Assembly: GCA_019510095.1 (NCBI GenBank)
Contig: JAEKLB010000024.1
Location: 1-49,657, forward strand
Direction: 5' to 3'
Source: Acidobacteriota bacterium
GTDB lineage: Bacteria; Actinomycetota; Acidimicrobiia; Acidimicrobiales; CADCSY01
Length of the DNA stretch: 49,657 nucleotides
Position numbers and translations under genes: made by a program. The notes under the pieces are model-generated. The model was not told the DNA's origin and did no database searches. It worked only from the letters and a program-made list of their open reading frames with translations. Shown in pieces: positions 24,454 to 42,873 of the stretch (position 1 is its first letter; every line of letters starts with the position of its first letter).

Positions 24454-25389
24454 GTGACGACCACCATTGGCATCGACGTGGGCGGCACCAAGGTGCAGGC
24501 GGTCGTGCTCGACGGCACGGAGGTACGAGCGGACGCGCGGGTCGAGACGCCCGAGCACGGCGGGCCCGACGCGGTCGTTGCCGCCATCGCTGACTGCGTC
24601 GAGCAGCTCGGAGGGGTGAAGCACATCGACGGCGTCGGCCTCGGCGCACCCGGTGTCGTCGATCGTCACACGGGTGAGGTCCTGCGGGCGCCGAACCTGC
24701 CCGGTTTCGACGCGCCGGTCCCGCTTGGCGCCATGGTCGCCGACGCGGTTGGGGTGAAACGGGTGGCCGTTGCCAACGACGTCAGCGTCGGCACGCTGGC
24801 CGAGCACGAGCTCGGCGCGGGCAGGGGATGCGACGACCTGTTGGGTGTGTTCGTCGGCACCGGTGTCGGTGGCGGCCTCGTGCTGCGGGGCAAGCCGTAT
24901 CACGGGAGCACTGGCGCCGCCGGCGAGATCGGCCACGTCGCCATCCGTGACGGCGGTCGTGCCTGCGGTTGTGGCGGCGTCGGTCACCTCGAGGCCTATG
25001 CCGGGCGGGCCAGCCTCGAGCGTGAGGCACGGCGGCGCCATGCCGATGGCGAGCCGACGCTCCTGGTCGAGCTCGCCGGCGACGGACGCATGAAGTCGAG
25101 CGTGTGGCGCAAGGCGGTCGAGGCCGGCGACACGATGGCGCTGTCGCTGATCGACGACGCGGTGGCGGCGCTCGGCGAGGCGTTGGCGTCGGCGACCAAC
25201 CTGCTCGATCTCTCGATGGTCGTGCTGGGAGGGGGACTGGCCGACAAGCTCGGTCCCGGCTTTGCCGGACGGGTCGAGGAAGCCACGCGCCACCTGCTGT
25301 TCGTCCCCGGTTCACCTCTTCGTGTGGTGCCCGCCGCCCTGGGCGATCTTGGCGGAGCGATGGGCGCGGCACTCATCGCTCGTCGGTGA
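24454..25389 (+). CDS. ROK-family glucokinase
   Basis: TIGIDVGGTKVQAVVLDG, GTGVGGGLVLRGKPYHGSTGAAGEIGH, CGCGGVGHLEAYAG. Confidence 0.93.
   Translation: MTTTIGIDVGGTKVQAVVLDGTEVRADARVETPEHGGPDAVVAAIADCVEQLGGVKHIDGVGLGAPGVVDRHTGEVLRAPNLPGFDAPVPLGAMVADAVGVKRVAVANDVSVGTLAEHELGAGRGCDDLLGVFVGTGVGGGLVLRGKPYHGSTGAAGEIGHVAIRDGGRACGCGGVGHLEAYAGRASLEREARRRHADGEPTLLVELAGDGRMKSSVWRKAVEAGDTMALSLIDDAVAALGEALASATNLLDLSMVVLGGGLADKLGPGFAGRVEEATRHLLFVPGSPLRVVPAALGDLGGAMGAALIARR
25299..25320 (+). promoter_or_regulatory. Candidate intragenic PHO box upstream of ppk
   Basis: GTTCGTCCCCG|GTTCACCTCTT, two 11-bp units, ~80 bp before ppk start. Confidence 0.3.
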
Positions 25390-25399
25390 GAATGACGCC

Positions 25400-27514
25400 A
25401 TGGCTGCTCATCTCGAGTCGTTCATCGAGGGGCCGTCGTTTGCCGATGACACCCGCTATCTGAACCGCGAGCTCTCGTGGCTCGACTTCAACGCCCGGGT
25501 GCTGTCGCTCGCCGACGTCCCGACGACGCCGGTGTTGGAACGGGCCCGCTTCCTCGGCCACTTCGCCCAGAACCTCGATGAGTTCTTCCAGGTGCGGGTG
25601 GCTGGCCTCGATGATCAGGCAGCCGCTGGCCTCGGCGCCGTCTCGCCCGAGGGGCAGACGCCCGCCGAGCAGCTCACTGCCATCCGTGATCGGGTGGAGG
25701 AGCTGATCGCCCACCAGGACCGCATCTTCCTCGACGAGGTGGCACCGGCACTGGCCGGTTCCGGCATCCAGCTCTCCGACTGGGACACGCTCGACGACGA
25801 CGACCGCGCCTATCTGGTGGAGGTGTTCGAGCGGCAGGTCTTCCCCGTGCTCACGCCGCTGTCGGTCGATCCTGGCCACCCGTTCCCGTACATCTCCGAT
25901 CTGTCGCTGAACCTGGGCGTGATGGTGCGCGATCCCACCACCGACGTCCGCCGCTTCGCCCGGGTGAAGGTGCCCGATCTCCTGCCCCGCTTCGTCGTCA
26001 TGCCCGATGGCGAGCGATATGTGCCGCTGGAACAGGTCATCGCGGCCCATCTCGAGGTCCTGTTCCCGGGCATGCGGATCGAGGCCCATCACCCGTTCAG
26101 GGTCACCCGCAACGCCGACTTCACGCTCGAGGAAGCCGAGGCCGACGACCTCCTCGAGGCGGTCGAGCTCGAGTTGCGCCGCCGGCGCTTCGGCCGGGCG
26201 GTGCGGCTGGAGGTGATGTCGGGCTTCGACGAGGAGATCCTCGACCTGCTGCTCGCCGAGCTGGCGCTGGGCCGCGAGGACGTCTTCGTCACGCGGGCGC
26301 CGCTCGACCTCGGGGGCCTGATGAGCGTGTACGGGCTCGCCCGCCCCGACCTCAAGTACGAGTCGTGGCGGGCGGTGAGCCCGCCAGGGCTGGTGGCCCC
26401 CGAGGGCGACGCCATCGACATCTTCGAGCGCATCCGGGCGCGCGACATCCTCGCCCACCATCCCTACGAGAGCTTCACGAGCACGGTCACCGCGTTCATT
26501 CGCGCCGCGGCAGCCGACCCGAAGGTCCTCGCCATCAAGCAGACGCTCTACCGAACATCGGCCGACAGCCCGATCGTGCAGTCGCTGATCAGCGCAGTCG
26601 AGGCCGGCAAGCAGGTCGCGGCGTTGGTGGAGATCAAGGCCCGGTTCGACGAGAAGGCCAACGTCGCCTGGGCCCGTGCCCTCGAAGAAGCGGGCGTGCA
26701 TGTCGTGTACGGCCTGATGGGACTGAAGACGCACAGCAAGACGGCACTGGTGGTTCGCCAGGACGACGACGGCATTCGTCGCTACTGCCACATCGGCACC
26801 GGCAACTACAACGAGCGCACGGCGCGGAGCTACGAGGACATCGGCGTGCTGACCTGCGACCCGCAGGTCGGTGCCGATCTGACCCAGCTGTTCAACTACC
26901 TCACCGGCTATGCCCGCCAGGAGCGGTTCCGCCGGCTCCTGGTGGCGCCCGGTTCGATGCGCCCCCGACTCATCAGCCTCATCGAGAACGAGGCGAGCGT
27001 GGGCGGCGGCCGGATCGTCATGAAGATGAACCATCTCGTCGACGTGGCGGTGATCGACGCGCTGTACGCGGCATCGCAGGCTGGCGTCGAGATCGACCTC
27101 GTCGTGCGAACGACGTGCTGCCTGCGCCCCGGCATCCCGGGGTTGTCGGAGAACATCCGGGTGCGCTCGCTCGTCGGTCGCTTCCTCGAGCACTCACGCA
27201 TCTACCACTTCGCCAACGGCAACGGCCGGGCGAAGCCGGCCTACTACGTGGGTTCGGCCGACCTCATGCCGCGCAACCTCGACCGTCGGGTCGAGGCGCT
27301 CCTGCCGATCGACGACCCGGCGTTGCAGGCCCGGCTGCACGAGATCCTGTCGGTCAACCTGGCCGACGACGAGCTGGCATGGGTGCTCTCCTCGACCGGC
27401 TCGTGGCAGAAGGTGCCCACTGAGATCGGGGTGAACACCCAATCGGTGCTGCAACAGCGGGCCCGCGATCGACGAAAGGCCGGCGCCGCCGATGGCCCCC
27501 GACGCCTCCATTGA
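25400..27514 (+). CDS. ppk: Polyphosphate kinase 1
   Basis: YLNRELSWLDFNARVL, KQTLYRTSADSPIV, HIGTGNYNERTARSYEDIG. Confidence 0.96.
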   Translation: MAAHLESFIEGPSFADDTRYLNRELSWLDFNARVLSLADVPTTPVLERARFLGHFAQNLDEFFQVRVAGLDDQAAAGLGAVSPEGQTPAEQLTAIRDRVEELIAHQDRIFLDEVAPALAGSGIQLSDWDTLDDDDRAYLVEVFERQVFPVLTPLSVDPGHPFPYISDLSLNLGVMVRDPTTDVRRFARVKVPDLLPRFVVMPDGERYVPLEQVIAAHLEVLFPGMRIEAHHPFRVTRNADFTLEEAEADDLLEAVELELRRRRFGRAVRLEVMSGFDEEILDLLLAELALGREDVFVTRAPLDLGGLMSVYGLARPDLKYESWRAVSPPGLVAPEGDAIDIFERIRARDILAHHPYESFTSTVTAFIRAAAADPKVLAIKQTLYRTSADSPIVQSLISAVEAGKQVAALVEIKARFDEKANVAWARALEEAGVHVVYGLMGLKTHSKTALVVRQDDDGIRRYCHIGTGNYNERTARSYEDIGVLTCDPQVGADLTQLFNYLTGYARQERFRRLLVAPGSMRPRLISLIENEASVGGGRIVMKMNHLVDVAVIDALYAASQAGVEIDLVVRTTCCLRPGIPGLSENIRVRSLVGRFLEHSRIYHFANGNGRAKPAYYVGSADLMPRNLDRRVEALLPIDDPALQARLHEILSVNLADDELAWVLSSTGSWQKVPTEIGVNTQSVLQQRARDRRKAGAADGPRRLH

Positions 27515-29024
27515 GCGAGAGGTCAAGCTGGCGGTCTGGCCTGGCTTTCGGCTGCCCGACCTGAGCGGGGTCGTCGACCAGGCCACTGCCTCGCCCGCCG
27601 CCGACCAGCAGCTCGAGGCGACTTACTACGACACCGAGGATCTCCGGCTCGGCCGCTCGGGGATCACGCTTCGCTACCGCACGGGTGAGAGCACCGACGC
27701 CGGCGACGCCGGGGTCTGGACGTTGAAGCTCCCCGATGAGTCGGCGACGGCCGGCGCGCTCAGTCGTGCCGAGCTCACCGTGGCCGGTGATCCCCGTGCC
27801 GTCCCCGCCGAGCTGAACGAGGTGGTCGCGGCGCGGGTGCGGACAGCCACGCTGGGACCGGTCGCCAGGCTCCAGACCGCCCGTCGCCGCACCGACGTGC
27901 GCGACGCGAGTGGCGAGCTGGTTGCCGAGGTGGTCGACGACGAGGTCTCCGTGCTCGACGGCGACCGGGTCGCCTTGCGCTTCCGGGAGGTCGAGGTCGA
28001 GCTCGGGGCGGCAGGCGACGAGTCGGCGCTCGCCGAGCTCGTGGTTCGCCTGCGGGCCGCTGGAGCCGGCGCCCCCGATCCCACGCCCAAGGTGATTCGC
28101 GCGCTGGGACCGGCGGCCGTGCTGCCGCCCGAGCTGGCCGAGGTGACGCTCGGCAAGCGGCCGACTGCCGCGCAGGTGTTGCGGGCCGGCCTCACTCGAT
28201 CGGTCCGGCGCCTGATCGACCACGACGTTCTCGTCCGGGAAGGCGCCGATCCCGAAGGTGTGCACCAGGCACGAGTCGCCACCCGCCGCCTTCGCTCCGA
28301 CCTCCGTGTCTACGAGTCGTTGCTCCAGCCGGGATGGGTGGATCCCTTGCGTGATGAGCTGTCGTGGCTCGCCGATCGCCTCGGTGGCGTGCGTGACGCC
28401 GACGTGTTGCTGAGTCGCCTCGAGCGCCAGCTCAGTGAGCTGGGTCCTGCCGATCGGGTGGCCGGGTCGCGCCTCGTCGCCATCCTCGGTGCCGAACGGG
28501 CGGAGCGTCGCGGCGAGCTGCTCGAGGCCTACCGCTCGAGCCGTTACCTCGAGCTGCTCGACCGTCTGGTCGCCGCCGCCGCGGCACCTCCGACGCTGGC
28601 CGCTGCCGATCGTGCCGCGGGCGACGTGCTCCCCGCGCTCGCGCGTGGACCGTGGCTGTCGTTCGCCAAGGCGGCCCGTCGCATCACCACGCAATCGCCT
28701 GGCGACGCGCTGCACAAGGTCCGCATACGCGCCAAGCGTGCTCGTTACGCTGCCGAAGTGGCCTCGATCGCGGTCGGCAGACCAGCGCAACGACTGGCTG
28801 ACGCGCTGGCGGCGGCGCAGGATGTGCTCGGCGATCACCACGACGCCGGTGTCGCGGGCGACTGGCTGCGCGCTGCTGCCGCCGATGCCGCACCCGACGT
28901 GGCGTTCGTGGCCGGCGAGCTGCTCGTGCGCCAACGCGTCGAGGCCGACCGTCACCTCGAAGCGTGGCCGGCGGTGTGGGATCGACTGCAGAAGGGGAGG
29001 CTCACCTCGTGGCTGAAGGCGTAG
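27492..29024 (+). CDS. CYTH-CHAD domain protein
   Basis: N-terminal EREVKLAV...YYDTEDLRL...LRYR (CYTH), C-terminal VHQARVATRRLRSDLRVYESLL and HKVRIRAKRARYAAEVAS (CHAD). Confidence 0.9.
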   Translation: MAPDASIEREVKLAVWPGFRLPDLSGVVDQATASPAADQQLEATYYDTEDLRLGRSGITLRYRTGESTDAGDAGVWTLKLPDESATAGALSRAELTVAGDPRAVPAELNEVVAARVRTATLGPVARLQTARRRTDVRDASGELVAEVVDDEVSVLDGDRVALRFREVEVELGAAGDESALAELVVRLRAAGAGAPDPTPKVIRALGPAAVLPPELAEVTLGKRPTAAQVLRAGLTRSVRRLIDHDVLVREGADPEGVHQARVATRRLRSDLRVYESLLQPGWVDPLRDELSWLADRLGGVRDADVLLSRLERQLSELGPADRVAGSRLVAILGAERAERRGELLEAYRSSRYLELLDRLVAAAAAPPTLAAADRAAGDVLPALARGPWLSFAKAARRITTQSPGDALHKVRIRAKRARYAAEVASIAVGRPAQRLADALAAAQDVLGDHHDAGVAGDWLRAAAADAAPDVAFVAGELLVRQRVEADRHLEAWPAVWDRLQKGRLTSWLKA

Positions 29025-29431
29025 ACACACAGATTCCGCTGGTTCGTGCCGGCGGCGGTGTGGTCTGGCGCGCCGGGGCGAACGGCGAGACCGAGGTGTT
29101 GGTGGTGCACCGGCCGAAGTACGACGACTGGTCGTTGCCCAAGGGCAAGCGCGATGCCGGTGAGTCGGACGAGGCGTGCGCGCTACGCGAGGTCGAGGAG
29201 GAGACCGGCCTCCGTTGCACCTTGGGACCGGAGCTGGCCAGCAGTGCCTACATCGATCGCAAGGGCCGCCCCAAAGAGGTGCGGTGGTGGGTGATGACCG
29301 CCGTCGACGGTGCCTTCGTCGCGACTGAAGAGGTCGACGAGGTCCGGTGGCTGTCGATGGGCGTGGCCCGGGCGCTGCTGAGCTACGACCGCGATCGAGA
29401 GATCCTCGACTCCTTCGTCGGAGGCAGCTGA
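29009..29431 (+). CDS. Nudix hydrolase
   Basis: Nudix box GKRDAGESDEACALREVEEETGL; GTG start overlaps CHAD gene. Confidence 0.92.
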   Translation: MAEGVDTQIPLVRAGGGVVWRAGANGETEVLVVHRPKYDDWSLPKGKRDAGESDEACALREVEEETGLRCTLGPELASSAYIDRKGRPKEVRWWVMTAVDGAFVATEEVDEVRWLSMGVARALLSYDRDREILDSFVGGS

Positions 29432-30221: not shown

Positions 30222-30298
30222 GTTCATCCCACGGTCGGTCGCCGGTCGCGGTGCGGCCGGCAAGTGTTCGCCACCCGTTCACCTCCCGTCCACATTGG
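30222..30298 (+). promoter_or_regulatory. PHO-box array: seven 11-bp units in register upstream of pstS1
   Basis: GTTCATCCCAC GGTCGGTCGCC GGTCGCGGTGC GGCCGGCAAGT GTTCGCCACCC GTTCACCTCCC GTCCACATTGG. Confidence 0.7.
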
Positions 30299-30366: not shown

Positions 30367-31455
30367 GTGCGAGTCACCCCCCGGCGCCTGCGGCGCATGC
30401 TCCCTGCCCTGCTGCTCCTCCCGCTGCTTGCCACGGCGTGCGGCGGCGACGACAGCGGGTCCAGCTCGAAGGGCAAGAGCTCGTCTGGCTCCGACCTGTC
30501 GGGCACGCTCAATGGCTCCGGCTCCAGCTTCCAGAACAACTTCGATCTGGCCGCCATCGACGGGTTCACCGCCGATGAGTCGGGGGTCACGATCAACTAC
30601 AACTCCGTCGGGTCCGGGCAGGGCAAGACCGAGCTGGCGGCTGGGGTGACCGACTTCGCCGGCACCGACAGCCTGGTGAAGCCGGAGGAGAAGGCCGGCT
30701 TCAAGGGCGGCGACCTCCTCTACTTCCCGACCGTCGCTGCCCCGATCACCGTGTCGTACAACGTGAGCGGTCTCGACGACCTGAAGCTGTCGCCGGAGAC
30801 GCTCGCCAAGATCTTCCAGCGGGCCGTGAAGACATGGGACGATCCGGCGATCAAGGCTGACAACCCCGACGCCTCGCTGCCGTCGAAGGCGATCACCGTG
30901 GTGCACCGCGCCGACGGTTCCGGCACGACCAGCAACTTCACCAAGTACCTGGCTGCCGCCGCGCCCGGCGTCTGGACCCTGGGGTCGGGCGACACCGTGG
31001 CGTGGCCGGCCGACGAGCAGGCCGGGCAGAAGAACGCCGGCGTCGCCCAGATCGTCAAGCAGTCCGACGGGGCGATCGGCTACGTCGACTTCTCCGATGC
31101 CACCGCTACCGATCTTTCGGTGGCGTCCATCAAGAACAAGGCTGGGAAGTTCGTTGCCCCGACCCTCGACGCGGCATCAGCGGCAGTGGCCGCAGCGACG
31201 ATCGGCATCGACCTCACGTACAGCCCGCTCGATCCCGAGGGCGATGACGCCTACCCGATCACCTCGCCGACCTGGATCCTCGTCTACAAGAACCAGACCG
31301 ACGCCGGCAAGGCCGCAGTGCTCAAGGCATTCCTGCGCTACGTCCTGACCGACGGGCAAGATTTGGCCGCCGACAACGGCTACGCCCCGATCTCGAAGGA
31401 TCTGGCCGGCAAGGCAGTGGCCCAGCTCGACCAGCTCGTGCTGCCGGGCGCCTGA
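30367..31455 (+). CDS. pstS: Phosphate ABC transporter substrate-binding lipoprotein
   Basis: lipobox LLATAC; GSGSSFQNNF..., TINYNSVGSGQGKTEL, HRADGSGTTSNFTKYL. Confidence 0.94.
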   Translation: MRVTPRRLRRMLPALLLLPLLATACGGDDSGSSSKGKSSSGSDLSGTLNGSGSSFQNNFDLAAIDGFTADESGVTINYNSVGSGQGKTELAAGVTDFAGTDSLVKPEEKAGFKGGDLLYFPTVAAPITVSYNVSGLDDLKLSPETLAKIFQRAVKTWDDPAIKADNPDASLPSKAITVVHRADGSGTTSNFTKYLAAAAPGVWTLGSGDTVAWPADEQAGQKNAGVAQIVKQSDGAIGYVDFSDATATDLSVASIKNKAGKFVAPTLDAASAAVAAATIGIDLTYSPLDPEGDDAYPITSPTWILVYKNQTDAGKAAVLKAFLRYVLTDGQDLAADNGYAPISKDLAGKAVAQLDQLVLPGA

Positions 31456-34153: not shown

Positions 34154-34887
34154 TGGACCAGGAGGCCCCGATGGCGGCGATCGAGATCAGGAAGAACTTC
34201 CACCACGAGCTCGACGCCATTCGAGACGACGTGGTTCGGGCGGCGGGGATGGTCACCGAGTCCCTGGCGCGGGCCACCCAGGCCTTCCTCGACGGGGATC
34301 TGGAGATCGCCGACGAGATCATCCGCAACGACGACATTGTCGATGCCCTCACCATCGATGTCGAGGAGCGGTGCTTCCAGCTGCTCGCCCTCCAGCAGCC
34401 GATGGCGTCCGACCTCCGGGCCATCGTGACCGCCATCAGGGTCCTGCCCGAGATCGAGCGGACGCACGACCTCATCACCAACATCATGAAGGCCACTCGC
34501 CGCACCTACGGCGTGGACTTTGCCCCGAAGCTCCGGGGCCTGATCGAGCAGATGGGGTCCGGGGTGCACCGGTTGTACCGGCTGGCGATCGACGCCTACA
34601 TCGACCGCAACACCGCGCTGGCCGATGCGCTCGACGACATGGACGACGAGATCGACAACCTCCATCGCGAGTTCATCGCCGCCATCTTCGAGATCCGGGA
34701 GGGGCGGGAGATCGAGCTCCCGATCGCCGTCCAGCTCGCCATGGTTGGGCGGTTCTACGAGCGGATTGGCGACCATGCGGTGAACATCGGCGAGCGGGTC
34801 CATTACATGGTCACCGGCTGGCTCCCAGAGCACACGGGCGCTGCCCGCCTCGCGGCACGCGAGGCCGACGAGGTGCCAGGCGAGTGA
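34153..34887 (+). CDS. phoU: Phosphate signalling protein PhoU
   Basis: RKNFHHELDAIRDDVVRAAGMVTESLARA, QPMASDLRAIVTAIRVLPEIERTHDLITNI. Confidence 0.95.
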   Translation: MDQEAPMAAIEIRKNFHHELDAIRDDVVRAAGMVTESLARATQAFLDGDLEIADEIIRNDDIVDALTIDVEERCFQLLALQQPMASDLRAIVTAIRVLPEIERTHDLITNIMKATRRTYGVDFAPKLRGLIEQMGSGVHRLYRLAIDAYIDRNTALADALDDMDDEIDNLHREFIAAIFEIREGREIELPIAVQLAMVGRFYERIGDHAVNIGERVHYMVTGWLPEHTGAARLAAREADEVPGE

Positions 34888-38068: not shown

Positions 38069-38112
38069 ACGTCGAGGCCCCCGCCGGTAGCAACCGGCGG
38101 GGGCCTCGACGT
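38069..38112. terminator. Perfect 20-bp stem, 4-nt loop (bidirectional terminator candidate)
   Basis: ACGTCGAGGCCCCCGCCGGT-agca-ACCGGCGGGGGCCTCGACGT. Confidence 0.85.
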
Positions 38113-38140: not shown

Positions 38141-39484
38141 TTACGGCCGGTCGACGGTGGCGCTGTGGAAGCCCGCCTTCTTCAAGCGGTTCACGAGGGC
38201 CTGGGCCTGGCCGTGGTTGGACTGCGGCTTCTCGACGTCGAAGCGGTTCTTCGCCTCGCGCTCGACGACGAAGCCGGTGAAGCCCTTCTTCGCCAGGGTG
38301 GCTCGCAGCGACTTGGCCTTGGCCAAGGTGGCCACCTTCTTGGCCGATGCCTGGAAGGAGACCTTCTTGGCGGTCGTACCAGTCGGCTTGGTGGTGGGGG
38401 TACCCGGCTGGGTCGTCGTCGGACCAGCGTTCGGCCGAGGATCGTCGCCCGGGACCTTGTCGAGGTTGGCCATGGCCGCCGCGATCATGTTGGCCGGCAG
38501 CGGTGCGTAGTTGAGCGGGGCCGCCCTGTCCTGGCCAGCGTGGAGGATGTAGTAGATCCACGCCTTGAGGTTGGTGCCGAGCTGCTCGTTCATGTTGGTC
38601 GGGATGAGCAGGTAGGTCACGGCGACGAGCGGGTAGGCGCCGCTGGTGCCCGTGGTCCAGGCCGGGTCCATGTTGACGGTGCCGTCGGCGTTGACGACGC
38701 CGTCAGCCACCGCGTCGGTGACTGCCTTGGTGGTGGGCTGGACGAACTGGTCGCCGCTGTTGCGGACGCTGGCCGTGCTGAGACCGCGCTCCTTGGCGAA
38801 GCTGACCTCCATGTATCCGATGCCGCCACTGGCGGCGACGACGCCATTGGCGACGCCGTCGTTGCCCGACTTGGCGATCTGGCCGTTGTCGGTCGGGAAC
38901 TGCGAGGTGGCGCCGTAGCGCCACGAGCTCTTGGCGGCGGCGTTGAGGAAGCCGGTGAAGTTCGCCGAGGTGCCCGAGCTGTCGGACCGCACGAACGCCT
39001 GGATGGGCAGGTTCGGCAGCCCGCTGTTGCCGTCGTTGGCGATCCGGCCGGAGTTCCAGTTGGTGATCTCGCCGGAGAAGATTCCGGCGATCGTGGGCGG
39101 GCTGAGCTTCAGGGACGGGTTGCCCGGGAGGTTGTAGCCCAGGGCGATGCCGCCGGAGATCTCGGTCAGGTTGACGAAGTTGCCGTACTTGGCCTTCAAG
39201 GCCGCGGTGTCGGACGCCGACGCGGGCGTGTCGCTACCGGCGAAGTCGACGGTGCCGTTGATGAGCTGGCTCCGGCCAGCACCCGAGCCGACGCCCGTGT
39301 AGTTGATCGTGACGCCGGCGCTCTTCTTGAAGTCGGCCTTCCATTGCTCGATGATGTTGAGCGGGAAGGTCGCGCCCGCGCCGCTCACGGATGTCTTCTT
39401 GTCCACCTCTGCCGATGCGGACGCAGCACCAGCTACGACCAGTCCGGCAGCGAGCAATCCCGCCGTGAATCGCTTGCCTCGCAC
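38141..39484 (-). CDS. pstS: PstS-family phosphate-binding protein with Pro/Thr linker and C-terminal SPOR-like domain; non-lipoprotein signal peptide
   Basis: GAGATFPLNIIEQW...INYTGVGSGAGRSQLINGTVDFAGSD; C-term FQASAKKVATLAKAKSLRATLAKKGFTGFVVEREAKNRFDVEKPQSNHGQAQALVNRLKKAGFHSATVDRP. Confidence 0.9.
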   Translation of the reverse strand: MRGKRFTAGLLAAGLVVAGAASASAEVDKKTSVSGAGATFPLNIIEQWKADFKKSAGVTINYTGVGSGAGRSQLINGTVDFAGSDTPASASDTAALKAKYGNFVNLTEISGGIALGYNLPGNPSLKLSPPTIAGIFSGEITNWNSGRIANDGNSGLPNLPIQAFVRSDSSGTSANFTGFLNAAAKSSWRYGATSQFPTDNGQIAKSGNDGVANGVVAASGGIGYMEVSFAKERGLSTASVRNSGDQFVQPTTKAVTDAVADGVVNADGTVNMDPAWTTGTSGAYPLVAVTYLLIPTNMNEQLGTNLKAWIYYILHAGQDRAAPLNYAPLPANMIAAAMANLDKVPGDDPRPNAGPTTTQPGTPTTKPTGTTAKKVSFQASAKKVATLAKAKSLRATLAKKGFTGFVVEREAKNRFDVEKPQSNHGQAQALVNRLKKAGFHSATVDRP

Positions 39485-39545: not shown

Positions 39546-39600
39546 GCAACGCGAACACCAAAGAGGGAGCAGGTGACCGGGAGGTGAACAGCGCCCGAAC
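39546..39600 (-). promoter_or_regulatory. PHO-box array upstream of pstS2
   Basis: minus strand GTTCGGGCGCT GTTCACCTCCC GGTCACCTGCT (ccctctttggt) GTTCGCGTTGC in 11-bp register. Confidence 0.65.
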
Positions 39601-39896: not shown

Positions 39897-40736
39897 TCAG
39901 CCGAACCGGCCGTTGATGTAGTCCTCGGTCCGGGGGTCGTTGGGGGCCGTGAACAGCTCGCTCGTCGGGCCGAACTCGACGACGGTGCCGGGCCGGCCCT
40001 CGTCGCCGAGGAAGAACGCGGTGTAGTCCGAGACTCGCGCCGCCTGCTGCATGTTGTGGGTGACGATGACGATCGTGACGCTGCCGACGATGTCGCGGAT
40101 CGTCTCCTCGATGCGCAGGGTGGAGGTCGGGTCGAGGGCCGAGCACGGCTCGTCCATGAGCAGCACCCGCGGCGACACCGCCAGGGCCCGGGCGATGCAC
40201 AGCCGCTGCTGCTGGCCGCCTGACAGGGCGCCGCCGGCAGAGCCGAGGCGGTCCTTCACCTCGCGCCAGAGGCCGGCCTGATCGAGGCAACGCTCGACCA
40301 GGTCGTCGTTGCTCCCCTCGTTCTTGATGCCGGCGAGCTTGAGCCCCGACAGCACGTTCTCGCGGATCGTCATGGTCGGGAACGGGTTGGGCTTCTGGAA
40401 CACCATGCCGATGTGGCGACGGGTCTCGGCCGGCCGCACACCGATGCCGTACACGTCGGCGCCGTCCAGCAGCACCTCGCCGGCCAATGACGACTTCGGG
40501 ACGAGCTCGTGCATGCGGTTGAGCACCCGGAGGAACGTCGACTTGCCGCAACCCGACGGCCCGATGATGGCCGTGACCGAGTTGGCCGGCATGGCCAAGG
40601 AGATGTCGTCGAGGATCTGGTGCTCGGCGAACCAGGCCGCCACGGTCCGGGCCTCGAGCGTGGCCCCGTTGCCGGTCGGGAGGACAGCGGGGTCGATCAT
40701 CGAGACCGGAGGAGCAGGAGTGGTCGTCATGTTCAT
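39897..40736 (-). CDS. pstB: Phosphate ABC transporter ATP-binding protein (second copy)
   Basis: [61 protein letters not shown]. Confidence 0.96.
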
Positions 40737-41815
40737 CAGGCTGCCTTTCGGACGCGCCCGAACAGGCGGGCCACGGTGAAGAGGGTGAGCACGAGCAGGA
40801 TGAGCACCAGGGCGCCCGCCCAACCGCGGGCGACCTGGGAGGGCACGGCGTTTCGCACCCGCTGGTAGACGAAGAGCGGCAGCGACGATTGGGCGCCCTT
40901 GGTCGGGTTGACGTTGACGCTGTCGGTGCCGAACGCCGTCATCAGGAGAGGCGCAGTCTCCCCGGCGATCCGGGCCACGCCGAGGATGCCAGCGGTGATG
41001 AGCCCGCTGCGGGCGGTCGGCAGGACGATGCTGGTGACCGTGCGCCACTTCGGCGCGCCGAGGGCGAGTGATGACTCGCGCAGCCCGTCGGGCACCAACT
41101 TGAGCATCTCCTCGGCGGTACGGGCGACGGTGGGGAGCATCAACACCGACAGCGCCATGGCGGCGGCCAGTCCGGAGAAGCCCTTCTCGAGCCGCACCAC
41201 CCAGAGCGTGTAGATGAAGAGGCCGGCGACCACCGATGGGATGCCGCTCATCGAGTCGACGAAGAAGCGCACGACTCGAGTGAGCCGGCCGGGGTACTCC
41301 GACAGGTAGACGGCAGTGAGGATGCCGAGCGGCGTGGCGATCAACGAGGCCAGGCCGACCTGCTCGACCGAGCCGATGATGGCGTGCTCGGCGCCGCCGG
41401 CTGACGCCGGATCGAGCGGCCCGACCTCCTCGAGGGTCTTGGTGAAGAACCCGGGGTGCATGCCGCCGATGCCCTTCGACACCACGTACCAGACGATGAA
41501 GCCGAGTGGCACCAGCGCGACGCCAGCCGACCCGGTGATGAGGATGGTTGCGGTCCGGTCTTTGGCCGCCTGCGGGTCGAGCCGCAACGAGACGTCGACG
41601 ACCTCGAGCGCGACGAAGGCGGCGAACGCGAAGACCACCGAACCGAACGCGCCGCTGAGCGGCGTCGCCAGGAACACGAGCGCGGTGAGGATGACGGCGA
41701 CGCCGGCAACGCCAGCGATCCGCACGCCTTCGGCAGGGGTGATGGCCTGCGGGCGGCGGCGAGTGGGGGTGGGCAGCGACGCCGGGTTCGGTGACGGGAC
41801 GGTCGTGACGGTCAT
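40736..41815 (-). CDS. pstA: Phosphate ABC transporter permease (second copy), N-terminal extension
   Basis: [59 protein letters not shown]. Confidence 0.94.
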
Positions 41816-42807
41816 CAGTCGACCAGCCCCCTCGAGGAGCGCGACCGGTTGACGACGACACGGGCGACCATGTTGACGATCAGCGTGACGACGAACAGGA
41901 CCAACCCGGCGGCGACCAGTGCCTTGCGGCCAGCCAGGCCGGCCTCGGGGAACTGATTGGCGATGTGGGCTGCGACCGAGCCGCCACCCGGCTCGAGGAT
42001 GTGCGGGGTGATCTGGAAGTTGATGCTCAGGATGAGCGCGACGGCGATGGTCTCGCCCAGCGCCCGGCCGAGCCCGAGCATGGCGGCACCGACCATCCCG
42101 CTCCGGCCGAACGGCAAGATGACCCGGCGCACCATGCCCCACCGGGTCCCGCCCAAGGCCAGGGCGCCTTCGCACGTCGTTCGGGGCACCTGGGCGAAGA
42201 CCTCGCGGGTCACCGAGGCGATGATCGGCAGGATCATGAGGGCGACGACGATGCCGCACACGAACATCGACGAGCCGAACACCCGCCTCGACGTGTGGAA
42301 GATCGGGATGAAGCCAAGGTGGTCGGTCAGCCACCGGCTGGTGCCGTTCAGCCGGGGGGAGAGCCAGTAGAGGCCCCACATGCCGTAGATCAGTGATGGG
42401 ATGGCGGCGAGGAGGTCGATCATCGTCACCAGTGGGCGGGCCAGCCAGCGGGGGGCGTACTCGTTGACGTAGAGCGCCGAGCCGACGGCAACGGGGAGGG
42501 CGATGGCCAGGGCGACGAGGGCGATGACGAGGGTGCCGACCAGCAGGGCCGCCACGCCGAACACCGGCGGGGTGAGATCGGGGAACCACTGGAAGCGAAC
42601 GAGGAATGACCAGCCCGCCTGGTGGAGTGCCGGCCACGCCTCCATGAAGAGGAAGAGGAAGATCAGGCCGAGGATGGCGAGCACCGACCAGGCCGCGCCG
42701 ATGACCAGCGCTTGGAAGGCGCGGTCGGCCCGCGTCGGCGAGGCCACGATCCGGCGCCGGACCGGGGCGGCAACGCCGTCCGGAAGGGTGGTGACCGCCA
42801 CGAGCAC
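41815..42807 (-). CDS. pstC: Phosphate ABC transporter permease (second copy)
   Basis: [36 protein letters not shown]. Confidence 0.94.
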
Positions 42808-42851: not shown

Positions 42852-42873
42852 TTCAGGTGAACGGTGGTTGAAC
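42852..42873 (-). promoter_or_regulatory. PHO box upstream of pstC2
   Basis: minus strand GTTCAACCACC|GTTCACCTGAA, 45 bp before pstC2 start. Confidence 0.6.

Follow-up and report, generated by a model that had tools for sequence, protein, structure and literature searches.

The window, that is, the whole stretch of 49,657 nucleotides that was analysed, carries two genes for phosphate-binding proteins of the PstS type, and the features of both loci are collected in Table 1. The initial annotation had described pstS2 as a PstS paralog with a Sec-type signal lacking a lipobox, a Pro/Thr-rich linker and a C-terminal tail of about 70 residues resembling a SPOR domain, and pstS1 as a lipoprotein gene. 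The coordinates of both genes proved correct, and the sequences claimed for the linker and the tail were confirmed without change.

Table 1. Positions of the pst genes, protein parts and predicted regulatory elements in the window.
Feature	Position	Strand	Description
PHO box upstream of pstS1	30266..30294	plus	predicted
pstS1	30367..31455	plus	lipoprotein PstS (LLATAC); heads pstS-C-A-B-phoU-phoR-phoP
Terminator	38069..38112		predicted; 20-bp perfect inverted repeat just past the pstS2 stop
pstS2	38141..39484	minus	447 aa; non-lipidated PstS with C-terminal SPOR-like domain
SPOR-like domain	38144..38362	minus	residues 375-447 (73 aa), pI 10.8
Pro/Thr-rich linker	38363..38449	minus	residues 346-374, from sequence
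PstS phosphate-binding domain	38450..39397	minus	about residues 30-345; from profiles and motifs
Sec signal peptide	39410..39484	minus	residues 1-25, no Cys, from sequence
PHO box of pstS2	39572..39600	minus	predicted; GTTCACC-TCCC-GGTCACC and a weaker third unit
pstB2	39897..40736	minus	
pstA2	40736..41815	minus	
pstC2	41815..42807	minus	
PHO box upstream of pstC2	42856..42873	minus	predicted

PstS2 and its operon

The pstS2 gene starts with a GTG codon at 39484 and its stop codon occupies 38141-38143. The product matches TIGR00975 with 236 bits (curated cut-off 205) and Pfam PBP_like_2 with E=1.8e-44, and the solved structure nearest to it is M. tuberculosis PstS3 (4lvq). The motifs TF, GSG, SD and RxDxSGT, whose role in phosphate binding is established for E. 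coli PstS, are present as GAGATFP, GVGSGAGR, FAGSD and RSDSSGTS, and they are also conserved in PstS1 and in the closest relative of PstS2 (L004). Judged from its sequence, the assignment of PstS2 as a PstS is firm. A signal peptidase I site is predicted between ASA and EV, and there is no lipobox Cys; indeed, the whole 447-residue protein contains no cysteine. An alternative start supplying a lipobox, which the initial annotation had named as a result that would speak against it, was looked for and excluded: going upstream from the GTG, the frame stays open for no more than 11 residues, and these include no Cys. Therefore PstS2 is not a lipoprotein.

The genes pstC2-A2-B2 lie directly upstream of pstS2 on the same strand, with a gap of 412 bp between pstB2 and pstS2. 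In Streptomyces, the PHO-box consensus consists of GTTCACC units spaced 11 bp apart (PMC7866108). With at most one mismatch, 4 matches were found in the window against 0.13 expected. Since a separate PHO box is predicted in front of pstS2, in agreement with the 412-bp gap, the gene probably has its own starvation-induced promoter. Another of the 4 matches (34768-34785, minus) lies antisense inside phoU and may be due to chance, and a similar repeat is also found at 25299-25316 (plus). Near pstS1, at 27492-29431, a CYTH/CHAD-like protein followed by a NUDIX-like protein was recognized by eye, and these genes appear to belong to a phosphate/polyphosphate gene group.

Identity of the C-terminal tail

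When searched in isolation, the tail matches the Pfam SPOR profile (PF05036) with 22.0 bits (E=2.2e-4), barely passing the cut-off of 21, while the whole PstS2 protein scores 15.4 bits (E=0.023) with the same profile, which is below the cut-off. The tail has a sole close relative in the genome, the tail of a 178-aa secreted protein (G000:C36; L003 1264-1800) that consists of a signal peptide, a Thr-rich stretch and a SPOR-like tail. This second tail passes the same cut-off with 23.5 bits (E=7.2e-5), its match spanning positions 9-73 of the 76 in the profile. The two tails share only 38% identity, so that the tail of PstS2 is no copy of the other. Among NCBIfam profiles the best match is FtsN, which is sub-threshold, and a profile built from the two tails ranks the SPOR domain of CwlC (1x60) first among 177,635 PDB sequences, though only with E=0.27. 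LytR_C and RecX were considered as the identity of the tail and rejected, both scoring below the cut-off, and PHROGs gave no match.

The AlphaFold model of the tail, computed from the single sequence with no alignment, shows strand-helix-strand-strand-helix and a short last strand, with a mean pLDDT of 72.6. At this moderate confidence, the predicted order of elements is that of a SPOR domain (beta-alpha-beta-beta-alpha-beta, RNP-like), as the initial annotation had expected. The full-length model, based on a 3-sequence alignment, is uninformative (pLDDT 45). When the tail model was compared with the PDB by Foldseek, no match fell below E=0.001; the top 50 were mostly ferredoxin-like, KH or RRM-type folds with E above 0.06, and SPOR entries were absent from them. 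The hhalign comparison with four SPOR domains of E. coli gave only low probabilities of 5-26%. Taking the profile matches of both tails together with the predicted fold order, we consider it likely, with good confidence, that the tail belongs to the SPOR family.

In comparison with the SPOR proteins FtsN, DamX, DedD, RlpA and CwlC, the tail is alike in size, in the predicted order of strands and helices and in its profile match, and also in having a basic position of the FtsN R285 type and a flexible linker preceding the domain. The difference is that the SPOR proteins carry the canonical Gln and a partner domain that is a division protein or wall enzyme, whereas PstS2 carries Ser and a nutrient receptor. 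Alignment of the tail to the four SPOR domains of E. coli places Ser380 of PstS2 at FtsN Q251, the canonical Gln site. The same replacement is found in the G000:C36 tail, and the canonical Phe is Val in the PstS2 tail. Arg414 takes the position of FtsN R285 and RlpA R309; K382, K383 and R409 are near it and may tentatively be set beside the basic patch of RlpA, R302/R309/R311.

Enzymes of the Amidase_3 class generate denuded glycan, and the genome has one Amidase_3 gene. SPOR domains bind such denuded glycans, and the Gln (RlpA Q270, FtsN Q251) is the residue most important for this binding, its occurrence at strand 1 being preferential but not universal; FtsN Q251 and R285 are among five residues whose mutation lowered septal localisation (PMC6895207). 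One special case of a wall tether is that the tail would concentrate PstS2 at the septum through glycans denuded by amidase and so focus phosphate uptake at division sites. This known behaviour of SPOR domains (PMC6895207), the presence of Amidase_3 and the position of Arg414 speak for it; but the missing Gln counts against septal concentration, as does the change of Phe to Val, and no division gene is linked to the pst operon. From our analysis we regard septal concentration as doubtful.

The loss of Gln in both paralogous tails may be read in another way as well, namely that the tail is a basic domain, derived from SPOR or resembling it, which has lost the recognition of denuded glycan, and that PstS2 is held through an anionic wall polymer, PstC2A2 or some other protein. 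The tail pI of 10.8 would suit such a contact, and so would L006, a basal member of the PstS2 clade whose C-terminus is a plain basic tail rich in Thr and Lys. However, the basic position in strand 3 is conserved, a folded domain is predicted, and no alternative ligand is known. This reading is possible but rather unlikely.

Anchors among the relatives of PstS2

Our survey of the order and the phylum covered 134 PstS-domain sequences, each of which was scored for the lipobox and the C-terminus. Two lipobox calls were corrected by eye before counting (L169, where the Cys lies within the hydrophobic core, and L022, where the lipobox was missed automatically), and L102, truncated by a contig end, was left out of scoring. 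A C-terminal transmembrane (TM) helix occurs in 0 of the 100 PstS with a lipobox against 25 of the 33 scorable PstS without one. The remaining 8 are PstS2 with its SPOR-like domain, L006, L170 and five sequences without a tail. L170 (782-1042) has, in place of the TM anchor, a tail of about 80 residues with two Cys, which is weakly Big-like (E=0.51). The PstS2 tail contains no TM helix, its maximum hydropathy being 0.38. The Fisher test for the association of lipobox and TM helix gives p = 2e-20, but the counts are not independent events; since the tree requires only 9 changes over five states, the association rests on few events.

In the tree, which was built by a quick method, all the tailed non-lipoprotein PstS form one clade of 30 (SH-aLRT 99), and PstS2 groups within it with L004 and L005 (SH-aLRT 99). 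The TM-anchored members, including L021, L085, L086, L089, L092-L101, L103, L104 and L125, carry a long low-complexity linker, and it was found that the SPOR-like domain of PstS2 occupies the site where these relatives have the TM helix. The gene order divides in the same manner: pstS is last (C-A-(B)-S) in all 21 loci checked in the non-lipidated clade and first (S-C-A) in all 8 lipoprotein loci checked. Because clade, tails and operon order split alike, the SPOR-like domain can be said to lie where the relatives have their anchor. For example, L021, L086 and L096 share with PstS2 the clade, the pstC-A-(B)-S order and the Sec signal without lipobox; what sets them apart is the C-terminus, a TM helix with a basic end instead of the SPOR-like domain. 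We found no described family matching the TM-anchored non-lipidated clade in those parts of the searched literature that were covered. Within the lipoprotein clade, L019 appears to have lost its lipobox Cys (GARFGT).

The C-terminus of L004 (4390-4629) reads IVSTG-TM-RRR and is sortase-like; its best matches, Gram_pos_anchor and the LAVTG model, are sub-threshold, and its genome has 5 sortase genes. The likeness of this sister to sortase-anchored surface proteins is not shared by PstS2, which has no sorting signal; any attachment of PstS2 to the wall would be non-covalent. A sortase gene (G020:C116:10832-11194) and a TM-anchored pstS were seen on one contig, some 6 kb apart. L005, the sister closest to PstS2 within its family, lacks both a lipobox and a tail, and no remnant of a SPOR tail was found behind the sister genes L005/L106, L004 and L006.

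The initial annotation had proposed a search for PstS-SPOR architectures. The fusion is present here, but no second case turned up when 397 genomes from the order and 337 from the phylum were screened; as the two sets overlap slightly, this makes it a singleton among about 720 genomes. Pfam SPOR scores above the cut-off in 7 of the 397 order genomes, and among the matches listed for them no SPOR match overlaps a PstS match outside this genome. A scan of the whole collection with narrow patterns returned one relative, which is without the tail. The titles and abstract openings of the literature searched name no fusion of SPOR with PstS or with another binding protein. Elsewhere, two SPOR-like repeats were seen in a small protein that resembles a lipoprotein (L037 1003-1737, G337). 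With the fusion found in this genome only, the genome fragmented into 227 contigs and the junction known from the assembly alone, the tail might have been joined to pstS2 by mis-assembly. This is very improbable, as the tail is no copy of the one in G000:C36, the frame is continuous, GC3 agrees between the tail and the PstS part (0.97 vs 0.96), and the stop is followed by the predicted terminator with its perfect inverted repeat.

Proposed retention of PstS2 and its meaning

For solute-binding proteins of Gram-positive bacteria, a membrane tether is thought necessary. In S. lividans, only cell-bound PstS sustains uptake, whereas PstS released to the medium fails to do so, which supports this need (PMC2605767). 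An unanchored PstS is therefore expected to need a tether. The lipoproteins S. lividans PstS and M. tuberculosis PstS1-3 resemble PstS2 in the binding domain, the Pst operon and the predicted PHO-box control; they are lipid-anchored and have no C-terminal appendage, whereas PstS2 has no Cys but a linker and a SPOR-like domain. Since PstS2 is without lipid and SPOR domains bind peptidoglycan, the most economical assumption is a tether at the C-terminus. As the relatives have a membrane anchor in the position of the SPOR tail, the tail is probably a replacement tether.

The mechanism we propose is as follows. PstS2 would serve a second Pst transporter, pstC2-A2-B2-S2, as its functional phosphate-binding protein. 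Upon phosphate starvation it would be made from its own PHO-box promoter, exported through Sec and cleaved by signal peptidase I. The SPOR-like domain, rather than a lipid, would then keep it near the cell by binding the glycan strands of peptidoglycan, and the Pro/Thr linker would provide the reach from the wall-held protein to PstC2A2, to which phosphate would be delivered. The domain would have taken over from the C-terminal transmembrane (or sortase-type) anchor usual in the clade.

The initial annotation had suggested that PstS2 is retained by the cell wall in place of a lipid anchor, perhaps with a concentration at division sites. The SPOR-like nature of the tail and a retention by something other than a lipid are well supported by the profile match, the predicted fold, the absence of Cys and the membrane anchors of the relatives; that the cell wall itself is what holds the protein is the part we infer, and our analysis leans modestly in its favour. 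The following points are counted against the tether: the lost Gln, the whole-protein SPOR score below the cut-off, the weak Foldseek and hhalign results, L005, the single occurrence and the fragmented assembly. In particular, the lack of both lipobox and tail in L005 means that a tether may be dispensable. The same sister would favour PstS2 being secreted and free, with a tail that has no retaining role. This we consider quite unlikely, as 25 of the 33 PstS without lipobox carry the TM helix and unanchored PstS is non-functional in S. lividans (PMC2605767). On the whole, the explanation that the SPOR tail holds PstS2 in the wall, replacing the C-terminal anchor of its clade, is the one we hold to be somewhat probable. 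Tentatively, PstS2 could even be an ABC-transporter nutrient receptor tethered to glycan by SPOR, with phosphate caught in the wall layer and possibly concentrated at the sites of division amidases.

Across a whole clade, PstS dispenses with the lipid in favour of the C-terminus, where one member has swapped in a domain of a cell-wall-binding type. PstS2 makes it testable whether a receptor bound to the wall can feed a transporter in the membrane, and whether its position in the wall would be random or septal.
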